A DNA stretch of 64,000 bases, taken from NCBI RefSeq assembly GCF_002001085.1, contig NZ_MUNU01000003.1, positions 1 through 64,000 of the forward strand. Reading direction: 5' to 3'. The notes below the pieces were generated by a model that was not told where the DNA came from, ran no database searches, and was given only the letters and a program-made list of their open reading frames with translations. The first letter of the stretch is position 1, and each line of letters opens with the position of its first letter. Below are positions 18,558-23,800 of this stretch, one piece after another. Both the position numbers and the translations under genes were made by a program. The DNA comes from Rhodanobacter sp. B05. GTDB lineage: Bacteria > Pseudomonadota > Gammaproteobacteria > Xanthomonadales > Rhodanobacteraceae.

Positions 18558-19403
18558 CTACCTACGGCGCTTGGCCGCATACATCGCGCGGTCGGCGTGC
18601 GTCAGCAGGGCGTCCGGGTCGCTGCCGTCTGCCGGGAAACAGGCAATGCCGATGCTGGCATCCAGCCGGAACAAGCCATCGGGCAGCGTGTACGGAGGGC
18701 TCAGCCGGGCACGGATACCGTCGGCAATGGCCTGGGCTGCCCTGATATCCCTGCAGCCGGGCAGCAACGCCACAAACTCGTCGCCACCGACACGGGCGAC
18801 GAGGTCGCCTTGTCGAAGGCTTTGCTGAAGCCGCTGTGCGACCTCGTGCAGCACGCGGTCGCCGGCGTCGTGCCCGCACCGATCGTTGACTTCCTTGAAG
18901 CCGTCCAGGTCCAGGTAGAGCACAGACAACCCATCGCCGGTTTGCGTCGCGTGGGTGATGGCGTATTGCAGTTCGCTCCGCAACCGGCGGCGGTTGGGTA
19001 ATCCGGTCAACGAGTCGTGGCTGGCGCGATGCTCAAGCTCGCGCTCGGCGTGGCGCAGCTCGGTCACCTCGTGGGCCACCCCGATACGCACGCCGTGCTC
19101 GGGCAGCCAGCGGGCCGACCATTGAATGTCCACGCTGTGACCATGCTTGTGGATATAGCGATTGCGGAAGTGGCGCTGCAGCTCTCCAGCCGTTACATGT
19201 GCGGCCTGCTGCATGGTCGCCGCGCGGTCGTCGGGATGGACCAGCTCGAATATTCGCCGACCAAGTACTTCATCGGGGGTGTAGCCGAGGATGCGCTCGA
19301 AGCTCGCATTGACGTACAGGAGATGGCCTTCGGCATCGACGACGCAGACTGCATCGGGCATCAGGTCGAGTACTTCGGCGAGCGGAGGCAATTTCGGGAT
19401 CAT
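18558..19403 (-). CDS. PAS-GGDEF diguanylate cyclase
   Basis: ATG at 19401-19403 gives 281 aa. Residues about 8-115 form a PAS domain (VDAEGHLLYVNASFERILGY, HPDDRAATM) and residues 120-281 a GGDEF domain. SHDSLTGLPNRRRL and the active-site RVGGDEFVALLPG are intact, so synthesis of c-di-GMP is expected. No RxxD inhibitory site is evident five residues before GGDEF. There is no membrane span, so the sensor is cytosolic. The gene is not part of an obvious operon. Confidence 0.9.
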   Translation of the reverse strand: MIPKLPPLAEVLDLMPDAVCVVDAEGHLLYVNASFERILGYTPDEVLGRRIFELVHPDDRAATMQQAAHVTAGELQRHFRNRYIHKHGHSVDIQWSARWLPEHGVRIGVAHEVTELRHAERELEHRASHDSLTGLPNRRRLRSELQYAITHATQTGDGLSVLYLDLDGFKEVNDRCGHDAGDRVLHEVAQRLQQSLRQGDLVARVGGDEFVALLPGCRDIRAAQAIADGIRARLSPPYTLPDGLFRLDASIGIACFPADGSDPDALLTHADRAMYAAKRRR

Positions 19404-19479
19404 GATGTTGCCGGGCTGGTGGCGGTGCCGTGCTGCAGTGTCGGTATGGTAGCGTCTGGGAAACCACGGGAGATGGAGG

Positions 19480-19857
19480 TCATGCGCCACCCACCCCGGG
19501 AAAAGGCCGGAGTCGAAGGACACCCGCCTGATCGAAAAGCGGGATTCCGTGCCGATCCGGTTTCAAGACCACAGCCAGAGGGCTGTTTGTCACGCTGACC
19601 GCGATCAGCCATGAGAGCAGTAGCTCGAAGCGCATCTGAGCCTTCACGTGCTGGAGCGCACGCCTGGCGTGGTCGGGCTGACGCTGATCCAGGCGGCGAT
19701 CGCTGTCGTCGAGTGCGGTGCCGGCGCGAATTTCTTCGACGTTCGACGGTGGGTGCATGTCGTCTCCTTCGAGGAAATCCCAGCCCGGCGTCGCGGCCAG
19801 CGCTTGCCCGAAGCTCGATTTGCCGTTGCCGAACGCGCTCGTCACCACAATCACCAT
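19480..19857 (-). pseudogene. Gluconokinase-like gene, 5' fragment
   Basis: The first 57 residues are a good gluconokinase N-terminus: P-loop SAFGNGKSSFGQAL, then FLEGDDMHPPSNVEEIRAGT and ALDDSDRR. In the family the next residues should be PWLD followed by a CSALK motif. Here the frame continues with unrelated sequence (RLDQRQPDHARRALQHVKAQ) and stops at 19480, and neither of the other two minus-strand frames restores the missing part. It appears to be a truncated, probably inactive gene, with a few bases lost around 19690. Confidence 0.55.
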
Positions 19858-19919: not shown

Positions 19920-20720
19920 TCATGGCCTCGTTTTTCCGTCCTCTTGAAGCGAAGGCAGTTGATGCCAGCCGGCATCACGCGCCGCGCGCTCCTGCTGCGC
20001 ATCGAAGACGTCGCCGCGCAGACGCGCGTCGACCGCGGCCTCCACCGCGGGCGGCAAGGTACTCGCCGCCTGGCGCAGTTCGCCGCCTTCCGACGGGGCC
20101 ATCGCGCTGAGCACGAGCAACGCCCAGCCCGCATTTTCGTGGCAGGCAAGGCCGGCTCGCGCCGGCGGGGCGCGCAGCACGAAGGTGCGGCAGATGCGCC
20201 CGTCGGTACTGCGGAAACTCAGGCCGATGGCGACCGGGGCATGCGCATCCGGTTCGCTCGCCAGCGCCTCGTCGAGCGCATGGGTCAAGGTGCCCGCGGC
20301 GAATGATTGGCCGCCCTGCATGCGCACCATGTCGCCGCCGGGCTGCCACCACCACCACAAAGCCACGGCGAGCAGCGCCACCGATGCGGCCAGCGCGGCA
20401 CCTGGCACAAACCGGCGACGGATCGCACGGCGGCGGGTCGCGCCCGTGCCATGTCGGCCCGCAGGCATGCCGAGCCGCGTGGCCGCTATCGCGGTCTGCG
20501 CGGATGGCGGCTGCAACAAGGCGGACAGGTGCGCCGGCACCGGCTCGTCAAGCACCGGATCGAATGCGGCGCGTAGCTGCGCACGCACGTCGCGCGCGTG
20601 CTGCACGCGGCGGGCGAGCACGGCGTCGTGCGCCAGCGCGGCGTCGATCCGTGCGCTACCCGCCGCATCGAGTTCGCCGTCCACGTAAGCCTGCAAGGTG
20701 TCGTCGTCGATCGGGTTCAT
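19920..20720 (-). CDS. Membrane anti-sigma factor
   Basis: The 266-aa product has an N-terminal zinc-free anti-sigma-like helical region (IDDDTLQAYVDGELDAAGSA), a single membrane span around residues 106-126 (AALAASVALLAVALWWWW) and a 140-residue periplasmic domain with two cysteines. Its ATG overlaps the sigma factor stop (ATGA, 20717-20720), so it is co-translated with that gene. It probably holds the ECF factor at the membrane until a periplasmic signal arrives; the divergent protease is a candidate regulon member. Confidence 0.85.
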   Translation of the reverse strand: MNPIDDDTLQAYVDGELDAAGSARIDAALAHDAVLARRVQHARDVRAQLRAAFDPVLDEPVPAHLSALLQPPSAQTAIAATRLGMPAGRHGTGATRRRAIRRRFVPGAALAASVALLAVALWWWWQPGGDMVRMQGGQSFAAGTLTHALDEALASEPDAHAPVAIGLSFRSTDGRICRTFVLRAPPARAGLACHENAGWALLVLSAMAPSEGGELRQAASTLPPAVEAAVDARLRGDVFDAQQERAARDAGWHQLPSLQEDGKTRP

Positions 20721-21208
20721 GTGTCTTTCCCAAGATGGGCCTGCAAGGTGGCGCGGGCGCGGGCCAGGCGGCTGGTGACGGTGCCCACCGGCACTTCCAG
20801 CAACGCGGCGGCCTCGCCGTATGACATGCCCTCGACCAGCACCAGGGCCACCACTTCGCGATGGTCCGGCGCGAGCGCTGCCAGTGCCATTGCCAGTTCC
20901 AGTTGTTGCGCCGGCTGTGTACTGGCGCGGTCGGCAGCCATCTCACCAGCTTCCTCGGGCGCGAACAGGTGTTGTGCCCGGCCGCGTGCACGCAGCTCGT
21001 CCCGCCAGGCGTTGCGCGCGATCGCGAATACCCACTTGTCCAGCGCGGCATCCGGCTGCCACTGCGCGGACCGGGCCAGTGCGCGCTCCAGCACGATCTG
21101 CACCAGGTCGTCGGCATCGGCAACCTGTCCTGCCAGCGCCCGCGCCAGGCGACGCAGGCGCGGCAACAGCGGGATCAGTCCTTCGCGCACGGCATCGCTC
21201 GAATTCAC
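20717..21208 (-). CDS. ECF-type RNA polymerase sigma factor
   Basis: The 163-aa protein has region 2 (LARALAGQVADADDLVQIVL, then DKWVFAIARNAWRDELRA) and region 4 (LAPDHREVVALVLVEGMSYG, VPVGTVTSRLARARATLQAH), with no region 3. It starts at the ATG at 21206-21208, 121 bp from the divergent S8 protease. The sigma and anti-sigma genes overlap by four bases. ECF factors normally direct their own operon, and the shared intergenic space suggests control of the protease. Confidence 0.92.
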   Translation of the reverse strand: MNSSDAVREGLIPLLPRLRRLARALAGQVADADDLVQIVLERALARSAQWQPDAALDKWVFAIARNAWRDELRARGRAQHLFAPEEAGEMAADRASTQPAQQLELAMALAALAPDHREVVALVLVEGMSYGEAAALLEVPVGTVTSRLARARATLQAHLGKDT

Positions 21209-21329
21209 GCATCACCTTCCATTACGCCTGGAGGGGAGGATTCCTTCCCTCGTGCGCATCGGCGCAGTCCGAGGGCGTAAAGCGGGCCCATGCTAGCATC
21301 CGGCCCCGTTGCTCCCGAGGCCGTTGGCC
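21209..21329. promoter_or_regulatory. Divergent promoter region, sigma operon and S8 protease
   Basis: This 121-bp spacer must hold both promoters. It contains the imperfect dyad GAGGGGAGGATTCCTTCCCTC at about 21232-21252, which could be an operator or part of an ECF promoter. No clear -35/-10 pair is recognised. The protease ribosome site CCGAGG is at 21315-21320. Confidence 0.35.
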
Positions 21330-22577
21330 ATGTCTCTGCGCCGTCCGTTCGCCGTGCTCGTTCCGCTGCTGGCCATCGCATTTGCGGTGGCCGGTGCGAT
21401 GCCTGCGCAGGCGCAGGTGCTCGGCCCGGTGCAGGGTCTGCCCGGCGTGCAGGTTCCCGGCGTGGGCTTGCCCGTTGTCGCTCCCGCGCAGCCCCTGCGC
21501 AGCGTCGACGATCTGCTGCGGGGGTCACTGGCCGTCACGCGAAGGTTGCAGATCGACGCGCTGCTGCGCGAAGAACCCAGGCGCGTTGGCATCGACCCCC
21601 ACGGTGCGCCGATCCTGCGCCACGAATTTCTCGCCATGGGTCTGTCGGACGCGCAACTCGATGCCGTGCGGGCGTCAGGTTTCAGCGTGGCTCGCGAAAC
21701 CCCGGCGGACGCGACGCTGGGCCTGGATTTCGTAGTCCTGCACGACACCCGCAGTCGCAGCACGGCCAGGGCCATGCGCGCCTTGCAGCGAGCCGCACCG
21801 GACGCGACGTTCACCTACCAGCACCTCTACCTGCCCGCGGGCCAGGGCGAGGTGGCCCGCGCAACCAGCTCGGCGGCTCCATCGTCCGGCGCAGCGACAC
21901 GACGCGTGGGACTGATCGATGGCGGCGTCGACCCGGCCGATCCCGCGCTGGCGCGTGCGCACATCGAACGGCATGGCTGCAGCACGACGAATCCGTCGCG
22001 GCACGGCACCGCGGTCGCCGCGCGCCTCGTCGACGGTGATCCGGTCACGCTGTATGCCGCCGACCTGTGGTGCGGCGACGCGGTCGGCGGCGCCATCTCG
22101 AATCTCGTGGACGCGCTCGCGTGGATGGCGCGCGAACGCGTGGCGGTGATCAACATCAGCCTGGTCGGACCCGACAACCCGGTGCTCGCGCGCGCGGTGC
22201 AGGCGATGATCGCGCGTGGCCACGTGCTGGTCAGCGCAGTCGGCAACGATGGACCCGCGGCACCGCCGCTGTTCCCGGCGGCCTATCCGGACGTGATCGG
22301 TGTCAGCGGTGTCGACGCGCATGATCGCGTGCTGCCCGAGTCCGGCAGCGGCGACCAGGTGGATTTCTGCGCGTCTGGTGTGGTCGGCAGCGGCCGCAAC
22401 GCATTGCGCGGTACTTCGTTCGCGGCGCCGATCGTGGCGCGAAAAGCCGCCCAATTGCTGGACGCGCCTCGCGATGGCGCTGCGGCGCAGGTGCAGCGAC
22501 AACTGGTCGGCGAGGCCCGCCACCTCGGCGCCCCGGGCCACGACCCGCGCTATGGCTACGGCCTGCTGTCGCCCTGA
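21330..22577 (+). CDS. Secreted subtilisin-like (S8) serine protease
   Basis: ATG 21330 with CCGAGG upstream gives 415 aa. A signal peptide (about 1-28) is cleaved at PAQA/QVLG. After a 165-residue pro-region the S8 triad is intact: Asp197 in GLIDGGVD, His225 in SRHGTAVAA and Ser363 in GTSFAAPIVA; Asn306 (AVGNDGP) forms the oxyanion hole. The mature N-terminus QVLGPVQGLPGVQVPGVGLP is low-complexity and resembles that of the next gene product. It is divergent from an ECF sigma/anti-sigma pair, which suggests stress-induced export. Confidence 0.92.
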   Translation: MSLRRPFAVLVPLLAIAFAVAGAMPAQAQVLGPVQGLPGVQVPGVGLPVVAPAQPLRSVDDLLRGSLAVTRRLQIDALLREEPRRVGIDPHGAPILRHEFLAMGLSDAQLDAVRASGFSVARETPADATLGLDFVVLHDTRSRSTARAMRALQRAAPDATFTYQHLYLPAGQGEVARATSSAAPSSGAATRRVGLIDGGVDPADPALARAHIERHGCSTTNPSRHGTAVAARLVDGDPVTLYAADLWCGDAVGGAISNLVDALAWMARERVAVINISLVGPDNPVLARAVQAMIARGHVLVSAVGNDGPAAPPLFPAAYPDVIGVSGVDAHDRVLPESGSGDQVDFCASGVVGSGRNALRGTSFAAPIVARKAAQLLDAPRDGAAAQVQRQLVGEARHLGAPGHDPRYGYGLLSP

Positions 22578-22682
22578 ATCTGAACGCGCCCCAACCGAAG
22601 CCTGCTGGCATGGAAGGATCCCCGGGGCGCGAACGTACAGGACCCCGGAAGCCGCGGATTCGCCGCAGGCAGGAGGTCCCCC

Positions 22683-23747
22683 ATGCGAAACACGACGCTC
22701 AACAACAAGACTTTCGGCATCACCTTGTTCGCCGGTGCCTTTGCCCTGGCCGTGATGGTCCCGGCGCACGCCCAGATTCTGGGTGGCGGTGCGCTTCCCG
22801 GTGGCATCACGGGTAGTGGCGGGTTGGCCGGTTCGCTCAATTCAACGATGGGCCAGATGGGTGGCCGGCTCGACGGTTCCGCGCGTGGCATGGGCAACCT
22901 CCATGCTCCCGACATCAACCAGCGGGCTGCCGCGCTGCGTGCGGAGCGCCTGCATCAACGCGCCACTTCGGCCGCCGCTTCGGCGACGGACACCGCTGCA
23001 CAAGCCACCCGCCAGGTGAACGGCCAGGCCGCTGCTGACGCCGCCGGCGGCCTCACCGGTGCGACTGGTGCCAGCGCCGGCAACGGCAACAGCAACAGCG
23101 CTGCGCTGGGCGGCACCGGGCAACTGGGCTCGTCGGCGGCGGGCGCAGTCGACACTTCAGGTGCACGCGATGCCGTAGCTGGCGCCGCGGGCCAGGCCGT
23201 CGGCCAGTCGCGTTCAGCCGTCTCGATGGCCAAACGCGGTGCCCAGGATGCGCTGAACCGCGCGCAAAACGTGGCCGGCGACGCGTCCGCGAATGCCGAA
23301 GGTGCGGCCGAAGGCTCGGCCACTGCCGGCCTGAGCGTGGCCCGGCAAGCCACCGCTACCGGCACCCAGTCGGCCCAAACCGCCGGCTCGCTCGGCACGG
23401 ACGCCGTCGGCGCCACGTCGCAGGCGACCTCGACCGGTGCGAGCACTGCAAACCGGTCGTCGGGTAACGCCGCGAATGCGCAGGCACCGACCACGCAACC
23501 GGGCCTGCTGTCGCCGACATCCAGTGCGTTGCGCGGCGCTGCTGACAAGACGGTCGACGTGTCCGGCTCGGGTGCAGCCAACGGCAACGCGAACGGCAAC
23601 GCCGGCTCGACCTCCGGCAGGGGTGGCTCGGCCAACGCCAGCGGCCGGGCCGGCGCCCGGGCCAGTGCCCACGGTTCCGCCCGCGACGGCATCTCGACTT
23701 CGGTGCAGCCCACCGGCGACGCCAGTGCGAATGCGCAACAGCACTGA
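22683..23747 (+). CDS. Exported Ala/Gly/Ser-rich low-complexity protein
   Basis: The 354-aa protein has a signal peptide of about 30 residues (cleavage at PAHA/QILGG) after a purine-rich AGGAGG ribosome site. The mature chain is dominated by Ala, Gly, Ser, Asn and Thr with scattered Gln and Arg, and has no Cys. It looks disordered or fibrous, with an amphipathic Ala-rich section (about 75-270). No family is recognised. It follows the S8 protease by 105 bp in the same direction and ends at a strong terminator, so the two are probably one operon; the protease may process it, but that is inference. Confidence 0.8.
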   Translation: MRNTTLNNKTFGITLFAGAFALAVMVPAHAQILGGGALPGGITGSGGLAGSLNSTMGQMGGRLDGSARGMGNLHAPDINQRAAALRAERLHQRATSAAASATDTAAQATRQVNGQAAADAAGGLTGATGASAGNGNSNSAALGGTGQLGSSAAGAVDTSGARDAVAGAAGQAVGQSRSAVSMAKRGAQDALNRAQNVAGDASANAEGAAEGSATAGLSVARQATATGTQSAQTAGSLGTDAVGATSQATSTGASTANRSSGNAANAQAPTTQPGLLSPTSSALRGAADKTVDVSGSGAANGNANGNAGSTSGRGGSANASGRAGARASAHGSARDGISTSVQPTGDASANAQQH

Positions 23748-23768
23748 ATTGCCAGCACCGGAAAAACC

Positions 23769-23800
23769 GGAGCCCCCGTTTGCGGGGGCTCCTCCGTTTC
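23769..23800 (+). terminator. Rho-independent terminator after the S8/Ala-Gly operon
   Basis: GGAGCCCCCGTTTGCGGGGG (23769-23788) is a perfect 10-bp stem with a 4-base loop, followed by TCCTCCGTTTCC. The U-run is weak. Confidence 0.7.

Follow-up and report, generated by a model that had tools for sequence, protein, structure and literature searches.

Gene content of the locus

The window, by which is meant the whole stretch of 64,000 nucleotides of Rhodanobacter sp. B05 DNA that was analysed, carries a cassette of four genes. The minus-strand genes, which sit just left of the span 21209-23800, encode an ECF sigma factor of 163 aa (20717..21208) and a membrane anti-sigma factor of 266 aa (19920..20720). 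The plus-strand genes encode an exported S8 serine protease of 415 aa (hereafter S8; 21330..22577, with a TTG at 21309 as an alternative start) and, 105 nt beyond the S8 stop codon, an exported low-complexity protein of 354 aa rich in Ala, Gly, Ser and Thr (hereafter LC; 22683..23747). The four genes named in a preliminary description of this DNA are real and have been located at these coordinates, with family support for the sigma factor and S8, and its statement that S8 and LC are divergent from the sigma/anti-sigma operon agrees with the strands. A short minus-strand frame (19480-19857), situated between the anti-sigma gene and one for a PAS-GGDEF protein (18558-19523), resembles the beginning of a P-loop kinase of the gluconokinase-like kind (AAA_33, E 0.04) and is possibly a truncated or frameshifted gene.

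The sigma factor matches TIGR02937 in a Pfam/NCBIfam scan (E 2e-22) and is 41% identical over 157 aa to RpoE6 of Sinorhizobium meliloti; by this identity to RpoE6 it is classed here as RpoE6-type ECF26. The anti-sigma factor gave only a weak family match (NF052375, E 6e-6, below cut-off), but it is 28% identical over 236 aa to S. meliloti EcfR6, with most of its length alignable, and 35% identical to its Novosphingobium counterpart. It has an N-terminal anti-sigma domain, one transmembrane helix (recognised by eye) and a periplasmic domain of about 140 aa. An adjacent anti-sigma factor with these three parts is an ECF26 trait, as is a serine protease gene divergent from the sigma gene, and both are present. 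The promoters share the layout of the ECF26 consensus but differ from it in their letters, reading GGAAGGA..CGTA here and GGATGA..CGTT in sphingomonads against a consensus -35 of GGAATA and -10 of GT.

S8 matches Peptidase_S8 in a family scan (E 3e-20), and its best matches amongst solved structures are subtilisins BPN' (E 3e-24). The protein comprises, in order, a signal peptide, a short Pro/Gly/Val stretch, an I9-like propeptide (about residues 86-165) and the catalytic domain. The triad residues D197, H225 and S363 and the oxyanion residue N306 are invariant across 22 S8 relatives, and by this Asp-His-Ser triad and oxyanion Asn S8 classifies as a subtilase. In the predicted structure, residues 94-165 follow the propeptide-like beta-alpha-beta-beta-alpha-beta order; the catalytic domain, built on a shallow alignment, was modelled poorly (mean pLDDT 46) and less well than this region, too weakly for a fold search of that domain.

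Mature LC consists of 24.5% Ala, 17.6% Gly, 12.1% Ser and 8.4% Thr, and lacks Cys, Trp, Tyr and Phe. It would be exported through Sec as a probably unstructured chain rich in these four residues. Conservation is highest at the start of the protein, and the C-terminus is alike in near relatives only. Pfam and NCBIfam scans of LC returned no family match; this, together with its low complexity and an internal TAG in the LC frame of a relative (L038, G105:C19:71819-72814; either a pseudogene or a sequencing error), would suit the view that LC is no real protein gene or that the neighbourhood is accidental. However, the start, promoter, leader and position of LC are conserved across two bacterial classes amongst relatives whose LC proteins are 26-77% identical, and that view is regarded as very improbable and largely refuted.

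With cleavage sites predicted by the (-3,-1) rule, mature S8 would start with QVLG (after AQA) and mature LC with QILG (after AHA). The matching Q-(V/I)-L-G start that had been pointed out earlier is hence present in the two window proteins. In relatives, LC mostly retains Q-x-L-G, whilst S8 begins with QLRG, QVHG, QMRG or QFRG, and elsewhere with QLAV or QLLPS; since the S8 start drifts whilst that of LC is kept, the two families have no such motif conserved in common. The idea that it acts as a functional tag was rejected, given the lack of conservation in S8 of relatives.

Promoters and the LC leader

Two copies of the ECF-type promoter GGAAGGA-N15-CGTA were found, one before the sigma/anti-sigma operon (21223..21248, minus strand) and the other behind S8 and ahead of LC (22612..22637, plus strand), the latter supporting the earlier suggestion that LC is under ECF-type control. 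The sigma-gene copy is present in 26 of 27 Rhodanobacteraceae loci, and GGAAGAA-N15-CGTA precedes the sigma gene in four of five Lysobacter-like loci, the spacer always being 15. Across 20 aligned loci, the LC promoter is invariant in 8/8 columns of the -35 and 4/4 of the -10 element, as against 0/14 in the spacer and 6/34 in the upstream flank. In sphingomonads, GGATGA-N16-CGTT-like sites (read by eye) precede the sigma gene, LC and also S8, which the motif faces because the short intergenic region is palindromic. The motif has changed in parallel at the sigma and LC genes, as expected if a sigma factor and the promoters that it serves change together. When the pattern was loosened, it had 14 matches in the whole genome of the window strain, as against 15 for a reversed control, and the 12 matches outside the cassette fall within or across genes, as far as they were read. 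No further intergenic ECF-type site was found in this genome beyond the sigma and LC copies, and a larger regulon in it was rejected on these counts.

An ECF promoter had also been anticipated between 21209 and 21329; one is present there, but it points at the sigma gene and none is directed toward S8. Nor was an ECF-type promoter facing S8 found in the other Rhodanobacter loci, where ATGCTAGCAT alone is invariant (21290..21299 in the window, assigned to no strand). This palindrome is some 30 nt upstream of the S8 start, is invariant in 27 loci and occurs as a single copy in the 3.8 Mb genome. A consensus scan detected no sigma-70 -35/-10 pair; ATGCTAGCAT is probably the extended -10 (TGC TAGCAT) of a housekeeping promoter, or else an operator.

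Immediately downstream of the LC -10 element, 40 nt (22640..22679, plus strand) fold as a hairpin, and the Shine-Dalgarno sequence AGGAGG forms part of its outer stem. The structure pairs in 91% of the cells of the alignment, compared with 31-56% when shifted by one, two or three columns. There is modest covariation, with double changes at 2 of 14 pairs (4 cells, a value matched by 4 of 500 shuffles). Amongst the Lysobacter-like leaders three of five fold alike, with a different outer stem. An Rfam scan of the leader returned no family, and a known RNA family was rejected. It is plausible that the hairpin would provide a translational check on LC. At the other end of the gene there is a strong terminator-like hairpin with a 10 bp stem (23769..23792, assigned to no strand), with a T tail on the minus strand only. 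As to the terminator that the preliminary description has S8 and LC share, no terminator-like site was found between the two genes, but LC has an ECF-type promoter of its own.

Conservation of the gene set in Rhodanobacter

Of 45 genomes from the genus, 26 have both the sigma gene and S8, which do not occur apart, and one further genome has a partial S8 at the end of a short contig. The two genes are always divergent and about 120 nt apart, or 118-134 nt in nearly all loci when measured from the start of the sigma match to the S8 start (two larger values come from S8 matches beginning inside the gene). A sequence search located LC in 19 genomes, each of which has S8, and in none of the 18 genomes without S8. 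The preliminary description had envisaged that related genomes might carry the ECF pair without the protease, or the genes scattered; in this genus the sigma factor and S8 are inseparable and LC occurs only with both, as befits a unit. The co-occurrence of S8 and LC runs in one direction: whilst 19 of 19 LC genomes carry S8, LC has been lost or has decayed in 8 of the 27 S8-bearing genomes and S8 has been retained, and therefore S8 cannot exist for this LC alone.

In the S8 genomes without LC, the same place holds an LC remnant (a short MRNTT... frame) or none, followed by an exported 'type B' protein (MKTRNLTLTLVC...), and in one genome the place of LC is taken by a tandem-repeat protein. Type B lies directly after LC in three LC-bearing genomes, elsewhere in others, and is absent from G000; it appears to have been the downstream neighbour for longer and to have stayed in place after LC decayed, an order of events that we infer. 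Type B proteins (L184-L193; G230, G215, G231, G224 and others) combine a conserved globular N-terminal domain, for which no Pfam match above cut-off was obtained, with DHPTGLS or RPQxP repeat tails. Where LC has decayed, their gene follows the ECF promoter that otherwise serves LC; elsewhere it is unlinked.

Because it is S8, and not LC, that is inseparable from the sigma factor, even where LC has decayed, a reading has to be weighed in which S8 belongs to the signal path, either cutting the periplasmic domain of the anti-sigma factor in a site-1-like manner or acting as the sensor, with LC as the output. The anti-sigma factor does have a periplasmic domain, and S8, having no ECF promoter in Rhodanobacter, could be present before activation. 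However, the S. meliloti homologue SMa0142 is strongly induced by overexpression of RpoE6 (PMC6180224), and the ECF-like motif also faces S8 in sphingomonads, both of which suit an output gene; a role for S8 in signalling is considered unlikely, although worth keeping in mind.

The cassette in other lineages

Five Lysobacter-like genomes (G121, G195, G101, G141 and G075) have the same layout, with S8 47-52% identical and LC starting, where read, with ...AQVLGGAG or ...SQSLVGGA. On sphingomonad plasmids (Alphaproteobacteria), all seven loci have the sigma gene divergent to S8 and a downstream protein starting with ...AQ(L/I)LGGGG, the S. hankookensis locus having one extra gene between S8 and the LC-like gene. 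When the LC family is defined by an export signal, an AQ(V/I/L)LGGG-like start, an Ala/Gly/Ser-rich chain and a gene position after S8, it comprises the proteins of 19 of the 27 S8-bearing Rhodanobacter genomes, G080, four Lysobacter-like loci and 7/7 sphingomonad loci. At the level of sequence, conservation establishes the linkage, both promoters, the leader hairpin, the export signals and the intact catalytic triad. The sphingomonad LC proteins of L195, L197, L198 and L144 end, after the low-complexity chain, in a PRC-barrel-like domain (of the two scanned, L195 matched Pfam PF05239 and L144 had no match).

Elsewhere the sigma/S8 pair is accompanied by other exported low-complexity neighbours, namely an (SGRGG)n protein in Paracoccus, a D-rich protein in Agrobacterium and an (NSSS)n protein in S. 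meliloti. No low-complexity neighbour was recognised at the Shinella, Aminobacter and Ensifer loci, where the signal peptide of S8 is followed by an acidic or Ser/Asp-rich stretch, and in a further gammaproteobacterial family S8 itself has a long (EDDA)n tract in that place (L126 3160-5436, oriented; also L121-L123, L125 and L127). The sigma operon of this family carries a SlipAM-type barrel (PF04575 in L126), and the product of the upstream gene in L126 and L122 is exported and has a C-terminus made up purely of Asp and Glu. In Paracoccus L199 (5357-5728 and 5735-6976), the (SGRGG)n protein is of the Tat-type exported kind and is encoded after S8, followed by a PqqD-domain/HprK-like protein that recalls RiPP maturation. 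The RiPP idea was not carried over to the window cassette, next to which no PqqD-like gene was seen.

The low-complexity protein is unrecognisably different between lineages (AQxLGGG Ala/Gly, NSSS, SGRGG, D-rich) whilst S8 stays homologous, and LC has its own promoter. These observations are in keeping with S8 and LC as independent outputs that have no enzyme-substrate relation. LC would then protect the envelope or form a polymer of the surface or matrix, and S8 would be an envelope protease of general function. Yet in most of the lineages examined an exported chain of low complexity is encoded next to S8 or within it, including a fusion with a long (EDDA)n tract, which suggests a functional tie; independence of the two is possible, if rather doubtful.

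A model for the cassette

The reading that we favour, and hold to be moderately probable, is that the cassette is an ECF26 switch that turns on a secreted protein of low complexity and includes a subtilase devoted to this protein, which it probably processes. The anti-sigma factor would keep the sigma factor at the inner membrane until an envelope signal freed it, and the sigma factor would then transcribe its own operon and the LC gene via the two copies of GGAAGGA-N15-CGTA. The 5' hairpin of the LC mRNA would mask the ribosome-binding site as a second, translational control, and LC would be exported via Sec. The divergent S8, with its I9-like propeptide, would be exported too; in Rhodanobacter its transcription seems to start at a promoter of its own that is not of the ECF type, and most likely it would process or remove LC, either in the periplasm or extracellularly. 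Of the roles put forward for LC in the preliminary description (substrate, matrix protein or propeptide partner) any may apply, a substrate being favoured here. We infer the use of these promoters by the sigma factor, the signal, LC as the substrate and the role of LC as an envelope or matrix polymer; LC is taken as the putative S8 substrate because the genes are linked and low-complexity tracts recur beside or inside the protease. What speaks against this reading is that S8 has no ECF promoter here, unlike in sphingomonads and S. meliloti, and that S8 is retained in the 8 of 27 genomes where LC is lost or decayed; the modest covariation of the hairpin and the poor model of the S8 catalytic domain also count against it.

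As a speculative extension, for which we would claim only a small chance, ECF26 modules may be a widespread on-demand device that couples a secreted disordered polymer of free sequence to a dedicated subtilase trimming or clearing that polymer. If true, this would make them envelope or matrix systems of a new class, in which the polymer (Ala/Gly, NSSS, SGRGG, D-rich or EDDA) can be swapped as long as it stays low-complexity. LC offers a concrete output to assay for RpoE6-type ECF26 sigma factors, and it is a candidate for what the divergent protease, otherwise without explanation, acts upon. It is also an example of a protein, exported and probably disordered, of which the sequence gives way to another from lineage to lineage whilst the regulator and protease are kept.

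Comparison with known systems

S8 shares with subtilisin BPN', an S8A enzyme with an I9 propeptide, the catalytic Asp, His and Ser, the oxyanion Asn and a propeptide-like domain; it differs in being exported by a Gram-negative bacterium and in having an extra Pro/Gly-rich or acidic stretch between signal peptide and propeptide. The cassette also resembles systems in which class I anti-sigma factors such as RseA and RsiV undergo regulated intramembrane proteolysis (RIP), in that a single-TM anti-sigma factor with a periplasmic domain is encoded next to a protease gene. Amongst the site-1 proteases of RIP, none is known to be an S8 subtilase whose gene accompanies an ECF26 pair.

The closest relative is the RpoE6-EcfR6-SMa0142 system of S. 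meliloti, with its homologous sigma factor, anti-sigma factor and S8, divergent layout and autoregulation. The serine protease divergent from RpoE6 (ECF26) has been described there as widely conserved in the group; SMa0146 is induced alongside SMa0142 when RpoE6 is overexpressed, and microarray data failed to define the function of RpoE6 (PMC6180224). Since RpoE6, EcfR6 and SMa0142 are homologous to the window proteins, the sigma/protease half of the cassette was already known, and the earlier remark that no description of the set existed holds for the LC part and not for the sigma factor and divergent protease (PMC6180224). In the literature searched, no description was found of a low-complexity partner that is conserved and has an ECF promoter to itself, nor of the spread of LC over two classes and its replacement between lineages; the words low-complexity are absent from PMC6180224. 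The published SMa0142 promoter on pSymA lies just before the homologue of the window S8 (32% identity over 351 aa), and the gene after ecfR6, which is SMa0146 by gene order, encodes the exported (NSSS)n protein. The S. meliloti system differs in that its protease has a mapped RpoE6 promoter, its low-complexity gene follows the anti-sigma gene, its promoter reads GGAATA..CGT as opposed to GGAAGGA..CGTA in the window, and its (NSSS)n protein is unrelated in sequence to LC. A further likeness is that, of the neighbouring hypothetical genes that RpoE6 induces together with the protease, one (SMa0146, by order) encodes an exported low-complexity protein.
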